Shown: one piece after another, positions 3,802-26,714 of the stretch
Layout of the letters: each line of letters begins with the position of its first letter
Position numbering within the stretch: the first letter of the stretch is position 1
Source: Candidatus Epulonipiscium sp.
GTDB taxonomy: Bacteria; Bacillota; Clostridia; Lachnospirales; Defluviitaleaceae
Direction of reading: 5' to 3'
DNA length: 36,706 nt
NCBI GenBank assembly: GCA_012519205.1
Contig: JAAYQR010000009.1
Coordinates: forward strand, 1-36,706
Translations under genes and position numbers: made by a program
Notes under the pieces: generated by a model
What the model was told of the DNA's origin: nothing
The model's database searches: none
The model's input: the letters and a program-made list of their open reading frames with translations, nothing else

Positions 3802-4497
3802 TTAGCCAAGGTATTTTTGGGCTTCTTTTAAGTAACAGGTTTTTATATCTTCAATTTCCCAGTAAGTAAAAAATAATCTTCTTGTCATTTTAAGGTGAAG
3901 GATGTCACCTTTTCGAAGGTATGGTACTAAACTTTCGTCTAAGAGTACTTTTGCGTATCTGCCTGTGGGCTTTTTCTTTATGGTTATGGAGCAGTCCGGA
4001 AAAATATCTATTACTTCAAAATATCCCTGTTCAAAAACTCCGTTTTTTTCTTTCATACTCTTTTTGTATTTGTTTTGTCTATAACATCTTAAATCAATAA
4101 TTAGAGGGTCGATACTAAGTACAGGGTTTCCTACAAACTTTGAAAATGCCTTTGATAAATGAATAATACGAATAAATTCATCCATAAATTTATCTACGGG
4201 GATAAATGTATTTAGTTCCTCTAGCTTATATTTTGACTTTAAGTATGTAAAATATTTTTGGATAGAAGGGAAAAGAAAATAGAGCTTTTCTTCGGATAGC
4301 ATTTTATTTTTCTTTGGAAGCCAGTATAAGAAAAATTCATCAAAAAATCTCCTATCTAAATCTTCAATTTCTAATCCAGGCTCCATCTCCCTACAATATT
4401 CCCTTAGTAAATTAATACATTTAATGTCTTTAGGTTTCTCTGTAGGCGAAGGATTTACATAAGAAATGTAATCTTCAATAGTTTGTAATACTGTCAT
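3802..4497 (-). CDS. Conserved-looking protein of unknown function, 231 residues
   Basis: I do not recognise this protein. It has no signal peptide or membrane helix. The first about 135 residues look helical and rich in aromatic and charged residues (FFDEFFLYWLPKK). The last about 75 look like a beta barrel (GYFEVIDIFPDCSITIKKK, later LRKGDILHLKM). A start at 4509 would leave AGG directly against the ATG with no spacing. The ATG at 4497 has GGTGG five bases upstream, so it is preferred. The gene lies downstream of a leader that carries three DnaA boxes and a terminator, so its expression may depend on readthrough of that terminator. Confidence 0.6.
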   Translation of the reverse strand: MTVLQTIEDYISYVNPSPTEKPKDIKCINLLREYCREMEPGLEIEDLDRRFFDEFFLYWLPKKNKMLSEEKLYFLFPSIQKYFTYLKSKYKLEELNTFIPVDKFMDEFIRIIHLSKAFSKFVGNPVLSIDPLIIDLRCYRQNKYKKSMKEKNGVFEQGYFEVIDIFPDCSITIKKKPTGRYAKVLLDESLVPYLRKGDILHLKMTRRLFFTYWEIEDIKTCYLKEAQKYLG

Positions 4498-4580
4498 ATA
4501 TTCCACCATCCTATTTGTTCTATCTACTGTTTATTCTTAACTTTATCCGGTGAAATATACATTACTAAAAATCAAAACAT

Positions 4581-4706
4581 AAAAAAACACCGAATGGGGA
4601 CATTCGGCGTTTGGAGATAAGAAACGGGGTTTTCTTATCTAAAAGATATAAATGACATATGTGAATAATAAAATGTTATCAACATGTTATCCACATAGTT
4701 ATCCAC
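4581..4706 (-). ncRNA. Candidate small RNA or attenuated leader with two C-rich hairpin loops
   Basis: The start is inferred about 7 bases after the minus-strand -10 box, and the end is the T run of the terminator. Read on the minus strand, hairpin 1 (4640-4615) has a perfect 10-bp stem AGATAAGAAA/TTTCTTATCT with loop ACCCCG. Hairpin 2 (4612-4585) has a 12-bp stem with one G-U pair and loop TCCC, and is followed by seven T. The linker contains TCTCC. Unpaired C-rich loops that can pair with GGAGG ribosome binding sites are typical of several Firmicutes trans-acting small RNAs such as RsaE. The alternative is a terminated leader of the downstream 231-residue gene, whose start codon is 84 bases away. 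No Rfam family is claimed. Confidence 0.45.
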
Positions 4707-4707
4707 A
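4676..4707 (+). promoter_or_regulatory. Cluster of three DnaA boxes
   Basis: TTATCAACA (4676-4684), TTATCCACA (4687-4695) and TTATCCACA (4699-4707) are all in the same orientation, with starts 11 and 12 bases apart, about one helical turn. The last two are perfect matches to the DnaA consensus and the first differs at one position. They cover about +1 to +31 of the minus-strand transcript, so bound DnaA should block it. No dnaA or dnaN is in the window, so this is read as a regulatory or titration site rather than the origin. Confidence 0.7.
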
Positions 4708-4712
4708 GCAAT

Positions 4713-4741
4713 ACTATACCATGTCTTTTAAACTTAGTCAA
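4713..4741 (-). promoter_or_regulatory. Sigma-A type promoter for the candidate small RNA/leader
   Basis: On the minus strand, TTGACT (4741-4736), a 17-base spacer, and TATAGT (4718-4713). Each hexamer is one mismatch from consensus. Transcription would start near 4706, inside the DnaA-box cluster. Confidence 0.65.
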
Positions 4742-4778: not shown

Positions 4779-4830
4779 ACATATGAAACTAAATAAATAT
4801 ATTATAATATACTATGAAAGGAGTTTTATT

Positions 4831-6636
4831 ATGGTTAAAACTAAATTAAAGTCTCTTCCTTCGAGGAATGAGCTGGATAAAAACTTCATATGGAAAATTG
4901 AAGATCTCTACCCCTCCGATAAGGACTGTAAAAACGATATGCTTCAGCTAGAAAGTTCTTTTGATAAACTATCCAAATTTCAAAACAAATTGGGTGACTC
5001 TTCCGATAATCTTTTATCTTGTTTAATTCTAAATGATGAATTATCCCAGATTATTGAAAAAATCTATGTATATTCCCATATGAAATTACATGAAGATACC
5101 TCTAGTAGCATTTACCAAGCTTTATCCGATGGAGCCAAATCTCTATCTATTAAGTTTTCTGCTATAGCTTCTTTTATTATTCCCGAAATATTACTGATTC
5201 CTGAGGATACTTTATATAGGTATATCAACGAAAATGAAAGTCTTAAACTTTACACCCATTTTCTCCATGATTTATTAAGACAAAAAGAGCATATTCTTTC
5301 TAAGAAAGAGGAAGAACTTTTAGCTAGAGTATCTGAAATAGGGGGAACCCCTCAAAGTATTTTCACCATGCTTAATGATGCGGATATGAATTTCCCTCCT
5401 ATTAAAGGCGAAGATGGAAGTGATATTGAAGTAACTAAGGGGAGATTTGTTAATCTAATGGAAAACCTCAATAGGGATATTAGAAAGGCAGCCTTTAACT
5501 CTCTATATTCCAGTTATATTAATCAAAAAAATACCTTAGCAGCCATATATAATGGAAGTGTCAAAAAAGATGCCTTTTTTGCCACTACACGAGGGTACCC
5601 TTCTTCCCTAGAGGCATCTCTTTTTGCCGATAATATCCCCCTTGAGGTATATACCAATTTAATAGACACTGTTCATTCTAATATACATCTCATGCATAGA
5701 TATGTATCCCTTAGAAAAAAACTTTTAAATCTTGATGAACTTCATATGTATGATTTATATACCCCCATTGTTCCTGATATAGATATGAAGATACCTTATG
5801 AAGAAGCCATCAAAATAGTTAAAGAAGGGTTGGCTCCCCTAGGAGATGACTACATTAAAATACTCCATAAGGGACTTTTTGGAGGCTGGATTGATGTATA
5901 TGAAAATAAAGGTAAAAGAAGCGGGGCCTATTCCTGGGGAGCATATGGGACCCACCCTTATGTTCTTTTAAATTACCAAGATAATATTAATAATTTATTT
6001 ACCTTGGCCCATGAAATGGGACATGCGCTTCACTCCTATTATTCAGATGAAGCTCAGCCCTATATTTATGCCCAGTATCCCATTTTTCTTGCTGAAGTAG
6101 CTTCTACCGTAAATGAATCCCTACTTATGCAGCATCTGTTAAATAATACCACGGATAAAAATAAAAAGGCTTATCTTATCAATCACTTCATGGAGCAATT
6201 TAGGGGAACTTTATTTCGCCAAACTATGTTTGCAGAATTTGAAAAGATTACCCATGAGATGTGGGAAAGGGGGGAAGCCTTAACCGTGGATAGCCTTTGC
6301 GAAGTATATAAAAATCTAAATATAAAATACTACGGACCTGATATTATTATAGATTCTGAGATTAGCTTTGAATGGGCAAGAATCCCCCATTTTTATAATG
6401 CTTTTTATGTATACAAGTATGCTACAGGGTATTCTGCAGCCATTGCCCTATCTGATGGAATCCTAAATAATAAAGCAGGATCCCTAGATAGTTATCTTAC
6501 CTTCCTAAAAAGCGGTGGTTCCGATTATCCCATCAATATTTTAGAAAGGGCAGGAGTTGACATGAAAAGCCCCGAACCCATAAAAAAAGCTTTAAAAGTC
6601 TTTGAAGGATTGCTGGTTGAAATGGAAAAAATGTAG
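4831..6636 (+). CDS. pepF: Oligoendopeptidase F (M3B metallopeptidase)
   Basis: A cytoplasmic zinc endopeptidase that cleaves short peptides. The zinc motif HEMGH is at residues 394-398 (LAHEMGHALHSYYS), with the downstream metal-ligand Glu in the FLAEVASTVNES segment. The N-terminal part is the helical PepF lid, and the C-terminal part carries the conserved YKYATGYSAAIALSDGIL region. The ATG at 4831 is preferred because GAAAGGAG lies 7 bases before it. An in-frame ATG at 4756 would place the TATAAT box inside the gene. The resulting 601 residues match the usual PepF length. The gene is monocistronic and ends in a terminator shared with the convergent gene. Confidence 0.93.
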   Translation: MVKTKLKSLPSRNELDKNFIWKIEDLYPSDKDCKNDMLQLESSFDKLSKFQNKLGDSSDNLLSCLILNDELSQIIEKIYVYSHMKLHEDTSSSIYQALSDGAKSLSIKFSAIASFIIPEILLIPEDTLYRYINENESLKLYTHFLHDLLRQKEHILSKKEEELLARVSEIGGTPQSIFTMLNDADMNFPPIKGEDGSDIEVTKGRFVNLMENLNRDIRKAAFNSLYSSYINQKNTLAAIYNGSVKKDAFFATTRGYPSSLEASLFADNIPLEVYTNLIDTVHSNIHLMHRYVSLRKKLLNLDELHMYDLYTPIVPDIDMKIPYEEAIKIVKEGLAPLGDDYIKILHKGLFGGWIDVYENKGKRSGAYSWGAYGTHPYVLLNYQDNINNLFTLAHEMGHALHSYYSDEAQPYIYAQYPIFLAEVASTVNESLLMQHLLNNTTDKNKKAYLINHFMEQFRGTLFRQTMFAEFEKITHEMWERGEALTVDSLCEVYKNLNIKYYGPDIIIDSEISFEWARIPHFYNAFYVYKYATGYSAAIALSDGILNNKAGSLDSYLTFLKSGGSDYPINILERAGVDMKSPEPIKKALKVFEGLLVEMEKM

Positions 6637-18142: not shown

Positions 18143-21100
18143 TTATTTAATATTAGGTATGGTGCCTATATTAATATTGTCATTAAAATCAGCAAAAGAT
18201 GAGCTACCACTAGTTGAATAAAATTTATTTGTTATATTGATGGAGGTACTATTATTTAACCATTCCTTATATTGTTCCATCGTTAATCCTGGCCTTGTTT
18301 TTAATTCTAAGAAGATGACTAATTTATACTCTCCTTCACCCTTTGTTCTAATGGTAATCGTCTTATCTGAATCTTTAAAGCTCAATGCTCCTGTAACATT
18401 TTTAATTTTGTAGCTACTAGCAATATCTGATATTTGTGGATTTATTTTGAGAATAATATCTTTTTCACTCTTTATATTCGTACTATTATCACCATCGGAC
18501 ACCACAAAATCAATATTAATAGTTGCATAATCCGGATATACATACCCCTTATTTGAAGATTTTTCAACTGTAAGAACATGAATTGTTACATTAGCTGTAG
18601 CAATTTCTATTTTTTCACCTAACTCTTCATCGTATATTGTCATAGTAGCAGTTAATACCCCTGCTCCTTTGTCATTGGCTTTAATATGGCCACCTGTTTT
18701 ATTATAGGTAATAACCCCTGATGTACTATATTCAATACTAGTTCCCGTTAAGTCTCCTGGCAAATTGCTGGTGAACAAGGAATCTGCAGCCATGGTATCT
18801 CCTTTTAGCATAATACCATCCTCACCTGAAGGCTCTAAATTAACAACATAGGCTATGGTTGATGCGCTCTTAGTAGAACCATCTATGGTAGCTGTTATTA
18901 CTTCTTTGCCTACTTTTTCTCCTTTTACAGCTACGGGGTTATTCATTGAGCTACCTAAGCTAATAATTCCTTTGTTTTCAGTACCCCAATTTACTTTTAA
19001 GGTACTAGGATTTAAACTAGCCTTTAAATCCTTTTGACTGCCCTTTTGTATATATAGCCTTGGGTAAGCTTATTCCTTCAGATACAATAACTTCTCTAGT
19101 TGCCATACCTACATTACCGAATTCATCCTCAGCAGTATAAGTTATAATATAGGTTCCTACCACATTGGTATCTAGTTTATCTACTATTTTACCATTTATT
19201 TTTATTTCTACTTTAATTTCTTCTTGGTCTATATCAACGAAGTCACCTAAATCATAATCGAAGTCTCTTGCACTATACCCTGGTTCTTCATAAGGGATAC
19301 CTCGAAATACCTCCATGGGATTATCACCTAATAAAGCAACCTCAGGGGGTGTATTATCTACGATAAAAGCTCCATATATAGCCTCTCTTGCATGGCCCTT
19401 CTTATTTTCTGATCTAGCAGCTACATAGTATTTTCCTGATTCTTTTGGAAAAGGAATACCTTTTTCTGCTTCAAAGGTTGCTTCTGCTTCTTCCCCAGGA
19501 GTATTATTTGAAGTTGCCCTAAACCAGCTATTTGGAACTCTATATTTATTCTGTTCACTTTCTTTTATAACCTTGTTTTGATACAATTCTTCCATAAAAC
19601 TTTCATTATCATTCCATGGGGTGTCCTTCATAAACATTTGGAATTCCCCTTCACCACCCCAGTTAAAATATTCCATATAAATCGGATAGGCTACACCTTT
19701 CTTAAGAGATACTTTATTATTGGTGTATATTAGCTTTGGTGCAGTATCTATAAAGTAGTCAGTAATTTCTATTTTTTCTCCCCCAACTATAATGTATGCA
19801 TAGTTTCCATCATCAGATTGTATAGCAAAGTAGAAGTCCCCTGTTCTATCAGGTACTATATAACCCCAAAACTTAGCGGCTTCTTTATAGTCAACTCCCT
19901 GTGCCCCAACGTATCCGAAAAATAGGTTTGACCCTATTCTATCATAACCTGTAGGATTTCTTTTAGATGTTTCTAAAAGCCCCGAACGAATTATAATTTC
20001 ATCCTTAGGATATTTGAATACTTCACTTCTATCAGACCACCTTGCGGTATCTTGCAGGGTCGGCATATGATTAACGTAATAATATCTTGATTTTAAGCCC
20101 TCTGTATCTAACATATCAGAAGGATTAACAAGCTCCATTGTTGCATCCAAAGGAAGCCAATTGATATTTTGTTCATTATGATCATTAATAAATGCATATT
20201 GTCCAGATACAACATCATTTCCGCTAATATTGATTATAGCAGTTGCACCTTCTTTTGCCTTTAATTTTTCCGATTCGCTTAAAATCTTTTTCTTTCTATC
20301 AGGTTTGGAATCATCTGTAACAAAAGGAGAAGAGCCTACTGTCCTATCACCATCTCTAACTTCAATAGATATTTGCGAATATAATTTACCTTTTACTATG
20401 ACCCTCATATCATTAACTTCTGCTTGCCCATTATTACCAAATGGGTCTGTATAGATTAATTTCCCATTATTAAATAGATATTCTCCTTCTTCCAAAAATT
20501 CATATGGAATCTTAAGAGGCTCACATATGAAGTCATATCTATTAGTCTGTGGATTCTTCCTCATGGACGCACTGAGAGTTCCTGTAATTTTCCTTGATTT
20601 TTCGTTGTAAGAAAATCCTTCCGGCAAATCCCCTACATTTACCCCCACCGGTATAATTTCTTCGTATTTAACATTTTTGAATTGATATTCATCTAGCATT
20701 TTAGCTTTAACTTCATTAAAAGCTTGATTTAGCTCCTCTTCGGATTTAGCATCATAATATATCCTGCTTGCTACTACTGCCTCTGCATTGGCAGAGACTG
20801 CTATTTTATTTAAGTAATCTAAATTAGCATCATCAGAAAATCCTATAAAGAAAGGCTTTATATTCTTGTTATCTTTAATCATAGTACCTATTTTTTTAGC
20901 ATATTCAAGGGAATATGGACGATTATTCTCTCCTGTTGTTTCTGCTAATACTGTTATATTATTTCTACCTTTATACATAAAATATTCTTCATAAGAAAGC
21001 CAACCCAGACTTCTCCTATAAGTTTCAAATGGAGTTTTCTGAGTTATTCCTGTATCTCCGCTATCAAGCTTATAGTCTGTAAGACTTTTATTATAAGTTG

Positions 21101-21671
21101 TAAATCCCTGGGGAACCCCATCGGTCATAACTAGCATAAATTTATTAGCATCTTTATTAGGAGAGTTAGCTAATTCATAATACCCCCTTCGCATCCCATC
21201 TCCTATATTGGTTGCCCCATTAGGATACATTGATGCAATCGTTTGCCTAATTTTTGAAACATCCGATGAATTATTCATACGATAAAAACCACTAACATTA
21301 TCAGCACTATTTGAATACTGAACTATATTAATTGCTACATTTTCCCCTTTGTATTGATCAACAAAATTATTAACTGCCTTTTTTAGTACCTCTATCCTAG
21401 TGCTTCTTCCCATTCTTTCTTCCATGCTTCCAGATACATCCAGCACTAGAACAATTTCTCTAAAAGTTGGAGTATAAAATTCACTGTTTCCATAAAGGGT
21501 GTATTCAATTTCTTCAGTTGACCCTGTTTCAGTTATAATAACTGATTCTCTCACAATTTGTGAAATGCTAGCATTATATCTATCTGCTCCTAAAGTAGTA
21601 AATGGTGTCAAAAATATCTGCAATACAAATACAAAAGCTAAATACAATCCAAACTTCTTACCTACTTTCAT
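18143..21671 (-). pseudogene. Large secreted vWA-PA14-Ig protein, frameshifted in a TA repeat
   Basis: One gene of about 1,170 residues. Residues 1-29 are a signal peptide. Residues 72-325 are a von Willebrand A domain with MIDAS motif Asp78-x-Ser80-x-Ser82, Thr154 and Asp184. Residues about 560-690 are PA14-like (FAIQSDDGNYAYIIVGG, YFNWGGEGEF) and 775-863 a DUF5011-like Ig domain. The first frame ends in GQSKGFKG and a stop at 19017. The other frame continues as QKGSQKDLKASLNPSTLKVNW, matching the intact paralogue (21935-24739), through Big2-like and further beta domains to GTIPNIK. The paralogue reads ATG-TAT-ATA-CAA where this gene reads ATA-TAT-A-CAA, so one TA unit is missing at 19050-19057. 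No LPXTG or S-layer anchor is seen. Role: surface or secreted adhesion, inferred. Confidence 0.8.
19050..19057 (-). repeat. TA dinucleotide repeat at the frameshift site
   Basis: TATATATA, four units. The protein frame would be restored by a fifth TA unit, judged by alignment with the intact paralogue. The tract is short for classical slipped-strand switching. Confidence 0.7.
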
Positions 21672-21751
21672 TAAAATCCCCCGTTTCTTAAAATATTTTA
21701 ATTAGTTCCCTATTAGATATTGAAATAGGAAAAATAATCTAATTCACTCTC

Positions 21752-25854: not shown

Positions 25855-26714
25855 TACTCCACCTCCTTATGAAGGTGTAAGATATTTCCTATGGTTTCTT
25901 TTAAAAAATCTCTCTTTACGACTTTATCAATGAATCCATGCTCCAATAAAAATTCTGCTCTTTGAAATCCTTCAGGGAGCTTTTGTTTTATGGTTTGCTC
26001 AATTACCCTAGGCCCTGCAAATCCTATTAAAGCCCCCACTTCCGCCAGTATTATATCCCCCAGCATCGCAAAACTTGCGGTCACTCCCCCAGTCGTAGGG
26101 TCAGTTAATACAGATATATATAGAAGTCCTTCATCATCATGCCTGGCAATGGCACTGCTGGTTTTTGCCATTTGCATAAGGGAAAATATCCCCTCTTGCA
26201 TCCTAGCTCCTCCCGATGAGCAAAAGATTACAATAGGAAATCTCCTTTTGGTTGCTTCTTCTACTGCCCTTGTAATTTTTTCCCCTACTACCGAGCCCAT
26301 ACTTCCCATCAAAAAGTTGCTATCCATTACACATATAACTGTCTCTTCACCACAAACTTTGCCTATCCCTGTTATTACTGCTTCCTTTATCCCCGCTTTC
26401 TCTTCCTGACTTCTAATCTTATCTTCATATTCGGGGTAATTTAAGGGGTTTAGGGTTAATAAATCCTCATCTAACTCTATAAAAGTATCCTTATCCACAA
26501 TCAATTCTATCCTATCTTTTGCTCCCATTCTAAAATGAAAGCCACAATAGGGACATAATTTGTTATTATCCTCTAAATCTTTTTTATACACAATTTTTTC
26601 ACAAGAGCTGCACTTTATCCACATGCCATTGGGGATATTGGGGATGGGGGGGTTCTCATAAGAAGGAGCGGATGTGGTAACGTATTTGGTTTTTTTAAAT
26701 AGGCCGTTTAACAA
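25854..26714 (-). CDS. accD: Acetyl-CoA carboxylase carboxyltransferase subunit beta
   Basis: Partner of AccA. A zinc ribbon lies at residues 35-57 (CSSC, 18 residues, CPYC), typical of AccD, followed by the carboxyltransferase crotonase fold ([44 protein letters not shown]). The start is a TTG at 26714 with GGTGG eight bases upstream; the nearest internal ATG would fall just before the zinc ribbon and would remove about 30 residues. The rare start may lower translation. Length 286 is normal. It lies 23 bases after accC and overlaps accA. Confidence 0.95.

Follow-up and report, generated by a model that had tools for sequence, protein, structure and literature searches.

Small RNAs with loops or linkers complementary to Shine-Dalgarno (SD) sequences include the cuckoo RNAs of Alphaproteobacteria, which are defined by their CCUCC hairpin loops, and the C-rich RNAs RoxS and RsaE. 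We know of no DnaA boxes at either group. As far as we know, the coupling of replication to Spo0A in clostridial spore formers, which lack sda, is also open. Active DnaA acts by way of sda to inhibit sporulation in Bacillus (PMC12112137); the sda product is a DnaA-activated protein that inhibits kinases (PMC12112137, PMC3533761). Clostridial spore formers are reported to lack sda (PMC3533761). The ArrA RNA of B. subtilis has a sigma-A promoter overlapped by DnaA boxes, is repressed by DnaA and influences sporulation; it is located at dnaA, antisense to the dnaA leader (PMC12112137), and provides a precedent for repression of a small RNA by DnaA. In Clostridioides difficile, the small RNAs SpoY and SpoX act at sporulation initiation by base pairing with spo0A mRNA, and neither Spo0E nor DnaA is mentioned in that report (PMC10267692). 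Spo0E represses sporulation in the same species (PMC11115286).

The locus described here occupies positions 4581-4741 on the minus strand of a 36,706-nucleotide stretch of DNA from Candidatus Epulonipiscium sp. (the window; genome G000). Direct reading of the sequence gives a sigma-A-type promoter, DnaA boxes from +1 onwards, a CCCC-loop hairpin and a terminator. The parts and the two neighbouring genes are:

4736..4741, minus strand: -35 element TTGACT (direct reading; TTGAC with a -10 element in 60/60 family loci)
4713..4718, minus strand: -10 element TATAGT, 17-nt spacer (direct reading; family promoter count)
4699..4707, minus strand: DnaA box 1 (TGTGGATAA), over the predicted +1 (exact match)
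4687..4695, minus strand: DnaA box 2, with a 3-bp gap to box 1 (double DnaA box; exact match)
4676..4684, minus strand: degenerate DnaA box 3 (TGTTGATAA; one mismatch)
4660..4668, plus strand: inverted DnaA box (TGTGAATAA on the plus strand; exact, orientation opposite to boxes 1 and 2)
4581..4706, minus strand: predicted small RNA transcript, ~126 nt (promoter and terminator, fold z, family conservation)
4640..4656, minus strand: unpaired linker, anti-SD in relatives, degenerate here (comparison with 5-mers of the 16S 3' end)
4616..4639, minus strand: hairpin P1, GATAAGAAA-ACCCCG-TTTCTTATC, loop ACCCCG at 4630-4625 (near-invariant across the family)
4581..4609, minus strand: intrinsic terminator, CGCCGAATG-TCCC-CATTCGGTG plus seven T (direct reading; stem varies among relatives)
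3802..4497, minus strand: downstream gene of 231 aa without Pfam match (neighbour, outside the RNA unit)
4831..6636, plus strand: divergent pepF-like M3 peptidase gene (neighbour)

A first-pass annotation had proposed this compact unit, with a near-consensus promoter, three DnaA boxes across the start point, an ACCCCG hairpin and a TCCC-loop terminator followed by seven T, and direct reading bears it out. The promoter reads TTGACT-17-TATAGT, which puts the predicted start at about 4706 on the minus strand, and the three exact boxes (4699-4707, 4687-4695 and 4660-4668) are joined by one with a single mismatch (4676-4684). The predicted transcript folds at -38.8 kcal/mol (z = -6.2; equalled by none of 200 shuffles), and in this fold, which like all those reported here is a minimum-energy fold only, the inverted box pairs with box 2 in a 5' hairpin, P0. 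That the locus is a small RNA gene we regard as almost certain; transcription itself is inferred in the absence of expression data. The plus strand has GGGGA loops, a CsrA-binding motif, but its reading as a CsrA sponge was rejected because the promoter and the U tract sit on the minus strand.

In contrast to ArrA, the RNA of the window is sited away from dnaA, its predicted partner is a different gene, and it brings a conserved hairpin and a terminator of its own. It is not antisense to the dnaA leader: in G000 the RNA gene and dnaA lie on different contigs, and in the single-contig genome G003 about 150 kb separates them. It differs also from the cuckoo RNAs, whose hosts belong to another phylum than the window's host (Bacillota), and it has no Rfam match. 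The earlier proposal knew of no described RNA of such a layout; for repression by DnaA, ArrA is a precedent. Searches at Rfam 15 gathering cut-offs returned nothing for the window or for 20 relative loci; the best permissive match, Yfr10, is a look-alike below its cut-off (33 vs 43 bits).

By comparison with other genomes, the locus appears to belong to a new small RNA family, an independent promoter-RNA-terminator unit with a conserved CCCC-loop hairpin. When 40 related genomes were searched with blastn, clear partners emerged in the window's taxonomic family and weaker ones in three others. From the order, 392 genomes were sampled; a covariance model built from nine sequences (R1) matches 48 of these, and a second, built from 33 sequences (R2), matches 62 of them and nine of 391 sampled genomes of the class. 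Two of the 62 (G204 and G306) were discarded as chance, and we judge the RNA family to be real in 60 of the 392 genomes, distributed over six taxonomic families (f1, f7, f8, f9, f15 and f18). Among the class-level matches, two are order members already counted (G000 and G024) and the other seven are chance-like or doubtful. The 60 loci analysed below remain from 76 extracted places after removal of eight order-level chance places (six plus G204 and G306), seven class-level places and one duplicate. One class-level match beyond the order (G420, L099) resembles the family in that its linker, loop and terminator loop are rich in C, and it is a possible distant member. In G290, two copies of the locus (L143 and L144), identical over the printed stretch, lie ~154 kb apart on one contig, as a result of either recent duplication or an assembly artefact; the survey of dnaA distances gave the second identical copy as ~200 kb away.

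An exact-pattern scan of named genomes yielded 15 stretches, with matches in Defluviitalea phaphyphila, in metagenome-assembled genomes labelled Candidatus Epulonipiscium, in Tyzzerella sp. An114 and in Candidatus Fimicola; those in Saprospiraceae and Gracilibacillus may be chance. NCBI taxonomy places Defluviitalea within Defluviitaleaceae, Lachnospirales, and f1, the window's family, is taken to be Defluviitaleaceae. In the searchable open-licence literature, outside which most subscription papers and all bioRxiv preprints fall, we found among the matches listed no trans-acting small RNA with DnaA boxes, none acting on spo0E and none from Defluviitalea. The family could nonetheless stand unnamed in large published lists of candidate structured RNAs (PMC8040213, PMC2864571, PMC6429828).

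Loss of the stems in relatives had been named beforehand as an outcome that would refute the proposal. The stems are kept, in a free-standing unit that recurs in several gene neighbourhoods. Across 33 sequences, 98.5% of the cells of P1 are paired, and a shift of one arm by 1-3 columns brings this down to 44-74%; four of its eight pairs are invariant. The closing pair is G-C in 17, A-U in 13 and G-U in two sequences, an inner pair switches from A-U to C-G in two sequences, and double changes are seen at two P1 pairs in alignment A2 and at two in A3 (the f9/f15 alignment). None of 500 shuffles of A2 matches the real number of paired cells or the covariation score; doubly changed pairs and pair types are reached by 105 and 142 of the 500, respectively, so that neither of these beats shuffles. 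RNAalifold predicts P1 alone, with a covariation term of -0.53. P1 and its loop are kept, and covariation is limited because the stem is nearly invariant.

The C-rich loops had been taken for the elements that would pair with SD sites. The CCCC of the P1 loop occurs in 60/60 loci and, as shown below, a specific conserved candidate target exists; the terminator loop is C-rich in many loci and not reliably so, the g4 sequences being counterexamples. In relatives a further pairing element is of major importance, namely the unpaired linker between the variable hairpin P0 and P1. A 5-mer from the 3' end of 16S rRNA is present in this linker at 40 of 60 loci (9.8 expected from shuffles) and in 22 of 39 distinct linkers (5.4 expected), yet in the window's own genome it has none and looks like a decayed anti-SD. 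A ten-base linker, GCUCACCUCG, is invariant in 15 aligned f9 and f15 sequences (for example L053, L049 and L039); it is kept there although exact DnaA boxes are absent. The RNA is very probably a base-pairing anti-SD regulator.

For a candidate target, the complement of CCCCGUUU was sought before ATG, and a Spo0E-like gene (Pfam PF09388) carries this pattern in G000, G002 and G004. Orthologs of it are present in seven of eight f1 genomes and in G014, and G021 has one PF09388 gene; G005 has no ortholog at E 0.001. The leader keeps two G-rich sites in all seven f1 genomes that have the ortholog, an SD that differs between genera and a G-run that starts 24-29 nt before the start of the gene (36 in G021). 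Across 11 genomes there are 26 places with the pattern GGGGATN{4,26}GRGGTGA, among them the leader in these seven; the G014 and G021 leaders fall outside it. As a general target pattern, AAACGGGG before ATG was rejected, with 56 places in 11 genomes and no excess over a reversed-pattern control; in the 36 of these places inspected, only the Spo0E-like leader recurred at the start of an orthologous product in several genomes.

Duplexes with each genome's own RNA were ranked, out of 323, against a background of 322 genes, all predicted from a 400-kb portion of one genome (G003). The leader ranks 1 in G003, G006 and G007, 2 in G014 and G021, 3 in G001 and 4 in G002 and G004, that is, 1-4 in eight of nine genomes; in the window's genome it ranks 27. 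Of 300 shuffled RNAs, none is as good in G003, G006 and G007, one in G001, four in G002 and G021, five in G014, six in G004, and 110 in G000. Ranking by shuffle z-score, for which half of the background was used (ranks of 162), gives 1 for G001, G003, G006 and G007, 2 for G021, 3 for G002 and G014, 7 for G004 and 47 for G000. When self-folding of the RNA is charged by cofolding, a ranking that left out G014 and G021, the leader is first in G000, G003, G006 and G007, 14th in G004, 15th in G002 and 45th in G001. Only under this whole-RNA cofolding does G000 rank first of 323.

The longest predicted pairing is that of G007, where UUUCACCUUAUUUAAAA pairs with UUUUAAAUGAGGUGAAA over 17 nt with one G.U. 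In G003 (13 + 14 nt) and G006 (14 + 14 nt), with 1-2 G.U each, both the SD and the G-run are covered in antiparallel order. In G014, leader and RNA have changed together, with ACGGGGAU pairing with AUCCCCGU and GAGGUGG with CCACCUC. In the window's genome AAACGGGGU pairs with ACCCCGUUU, and by eye there is a further match between UCCCCAU, in the terminator loop, and AUGGGGA, in the leader. Comparison thus indicates a complementarity of linker and loop to the Spo0E-like ribosome-binding site that is conserved in Defluviitaleaceae, together with looser matches in two further families, each represented by a single genome. A conserved unpaired element matching conserved mRNA sites is found in f1, f8 and f15 only, and is weak in the window's genome. 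We consider it likely, without genetic data, that the Spo0E-like mRNA is a target of the RNA in Defluviitaleaceae.

Other Spo0E-like genes are mostly poor partners: three in G013 (f7) rank 140-304 over the starts tried, the best of four in G005 ranks 28, and two each in G001 and G014 rank 26 and 207, and 5 and 253. The spo0A gene is present in 26 of 30 genomes, and its leaders were rejected as targets, nine of 15 fetched leaders having been scored and found to rank 66-284 of 323. Also rejected were targets of the f9 linker (CGAGGTGAGC near ATG; four matches in three of 17 genomes and four control matches) and AAACGGGGCAATTTTATG, which recurs in five f1 genomes yet opens frames of only 1 to 35 codons. 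Separately, AAACGGGG is the SD region of a von-Willebrand-type surface protein gene of the window (by eye; gene 19017-21671, leader 21669-21686); this 8-nt match to P1 is confined to a single genome and is possibly chance.

The RNA may instead be a general anti-SD RNA with many targets, the Spo0E-like mRNA being just one of them or a fortuitous match, and DnaA would then couple translation more broadly to replication. The CCCC loop (60/60 loci) and the anti-SD linker (40/60) suit such a role. In addition, f9 RNAs pair well with f1 leaders (G076, -29 to -36 kcal/mol), which makes some of the affinity a generic anti-SD effect. The RNA also persists where no Spo0E-like gene was found, namely in 13/13 f18 and 4/4 f9 genomes tested, and in these 17 it must act on other mRNAs. 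We nevertheless think this reading unlikely: in three g4 genomes a gap of ~7-10 kcal/mol separates the Spo0E-like leader from the best of the 322 background genes, and the upstream G-run of the leader, which lies outside the SD, is conserved.

With regard to the promoter, TTGAC and a -10 element of at least 4/6 at 16-18 nt are present in 60/60 loci; a first rule had picked a non-TTGAC -35 in eight loci, and the second rule gave TTGAC with a -10 in all. Exact DnaA boxes (TGTGNATAA/TTATNCACA), counted between promoter and P1, are less general. At least one is present in 31 of 60 loci and none in 29; by family, at least one is found in 8/8 f1, 1/1 f7, 1/1 f8 and 21/33 f18 loci, and in 0/16 f9 and 0/1 f15. 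An exact box lies 1-8 nt past the -10 in 26 of the 60, and the first exact forward box lies 3-5 nt past it in 24 of 30. Start-to-start spacings of successive exact forward boxes are 11 nt in 16, 12 nt in 28 and 21 nt in 13 of 59 gaps, so that 44 of the 59 are 11-12 nt. E. coli DnaA favours box pairs 2 or 3 bp apart (PMC11317965), which corresponds to 11-12 nt from start to start, the usual spacing in the family.

What stands out is that the boxes are clustered and that the cluster is conserved, not the frequency of boxes in the window, where near-matches to TTATNCACA with at most one mismatch are at chance level (46 vs 47 expected). Over the 60 loci, exact boxes number 86 in 7,800 nt before the hairpin and 97 in 152,840 nt of flank, a 17-fold difference against a background that is itself raised because f18 loci have further boxes 1.1-1.5 kb downstream. 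The box positions, which are conserved in four families, support the proposal of DnaA control; roughly half of the RNA family has no exact boxes. Closely spaced, conserved boxes at a promoter, as expected of a member of the DnaA regulon, are found, with at least one exact box in the 31 loci and throughout the window's family; boxes and a Spo0E-like leader match coincide only in f1 and one f8 genome. DnaA probably binds at the promoter, for which there are no binding data, and we lean towards repression, inferred from the position of the box at +1.

The 1.5 kb before the dnaA match, which was found in 30 of 31 genomes searched, contains 5-10 exact boxes in six readable f1 genomes (nine in the window's genome), 3-11 in twelve f18 genomes and 0-6 in four f9 genomes; their scarcity in part of the f9 genomes is a possible reason for the loss of boxes at the f9 RNA. 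Alternatively, the boxes may form a titration or datA-like cluster near the origin, with an unrelated small RNA merely sharing the intergenic space. The loci are origin-proximal where this is measurable, 22-150 kb from dnaA in the nine of 31 genomes that have both on one contig (in single-contig genomes, ~29 kb across the contig ends in G231, ~125 kb in G255 and ~150 kb in G003), and many f18 loci have the further downstream boxes; draft assemblies, however, bias these distances toward nearness. We hold this alternative to be improbable, since the boxes are locked to the start site while the neighbourhood varies by family, and since they are absent in f9, where the promoter is kept.

Some further boxes were seen elsewhere. 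In L002, L004 and L008 (genus g4), an extra exact box abuts the T tract of the terminator, and three exact boxes and one near match at 26491-26623 of the window, inside an accD-like frame (by eye), may be chance.

The gene neighbourhood differs between families. In f1 the RNA lies between a divergent pepF and the 231-aa gene without Pfam match; by eye, a gene start similar to that of the window's 3802-4497 gene follows the RNA in L002, L004, L006, L007 and L008. A gene like the 2-oxoacid ferredoxin oxidoreductase beta subunit (by eye) is found in f7 and f8 together with a haem-NO-binding/MCP gene (HNOB-MCP; Pfam in f7), and in f15 with a rhomboid-like gene (by eye). The order in f18, assigned by Pfam in G024 and similar by eye in others, is DUF2508, BofA, the RNA, a rhomboid gene and a uracil-DNA-glycosylase (UDG)-family gene; f9 loci have M18-peptidase-like, AraC-like and other genes (by eye). 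With its own promoter and terminator in such varied contexts, the RNA has the layout of a trans-encoded one. That it acts in cis, as a leader or attenuator for the gene that follows, is very improbable on the minimum-energy folds, even with a same-strand frame following in 9/11 f18 and 4/5 f9 loci inspected and in one locus each of f1, f7, f8 and f15, because the downstream genes (no-Pfam 231 aa, HNOB-MCP, rhomboid, AraC-like by eye) are unrelated between families and the next gene in G015 is on the opposite strand.

Wherever a UDG-family gene was recognised in f18, the further boxes lie in front of it. In L182, several lie between the rhomboid gene, which ends at 4569, and the UDG-family frame (4815-5432), and boxes 1.1-1.5 kb downstream of P1 are present also where the f18 RNA has no exact boxes (for example G060, G239 and G255). 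The UDG-family gene, assigned by Pfam in G024 only, is a second candidate for control by DnaA.

Of these readings we prefer a circuit of two successive repressions, of the RNA by DnaA and of Spo0E-like translation by the RNA, tying replication to Spo0A~P; on balance we favour this model as a whole. DnaA bound to the double box over the start site would block transcription of the RNA in the manner of a repressor, and synthesis of the RNA would begin when initiation had left DnaA consumed or inactive. Its linker and the arm and loop of P1 would then pair with the Spo0E-like leader, cover the SD and stop translation; in the window's genome, P1 and the terminator loop would do the pairing instead of the linker. 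Less Spo0E-like phosphatase would mean more Spo0A~P, so that active DnaA would keep a brake on sporulation that completed initiation would free. Whether the circuit alters sporulation is an even call, as there are no expression, binding or genetic data.

The sign of this circuit agrees with the logic of DnaA-Sda in Bacillus, where active DnaA likewise holds back Spo0A~P, and would be reached by other parts, every arrow in the present organism being inferred. Sda is a protein that DnaA activates and that inhibits kinases, whereas here an RNA with DnaA boxes would act on a phosphatase mRNA (PMC12112137, PMC3533761). SpoY and SpoX are likewise clostridial small RNAs that act by base pairing at sporulation initiation; they pair with spo0A mRNA (PMC10267692), whereas none of the nine spo0A leaders scored here pairs well with the present RNA. 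A more far-reaching reading, to which we give a probability of about 0.45, is that the RNA serves in Defluviitaleaceae and near relatives as a riboregulatory checkpoint, a non-orthologous replacement of the Sda checkpoint missing from clostridia, and that the DnaA-box RNA of neighbouring families has been redirected to other mRNAs.

If true, the circuit links DNA replication to spore formation in these bacteria, and it is a concrete one, with named bases on both the RNA and the mRNA side. The family also offers a system for studying DnaA-dependent control of a trans-acting RNA.
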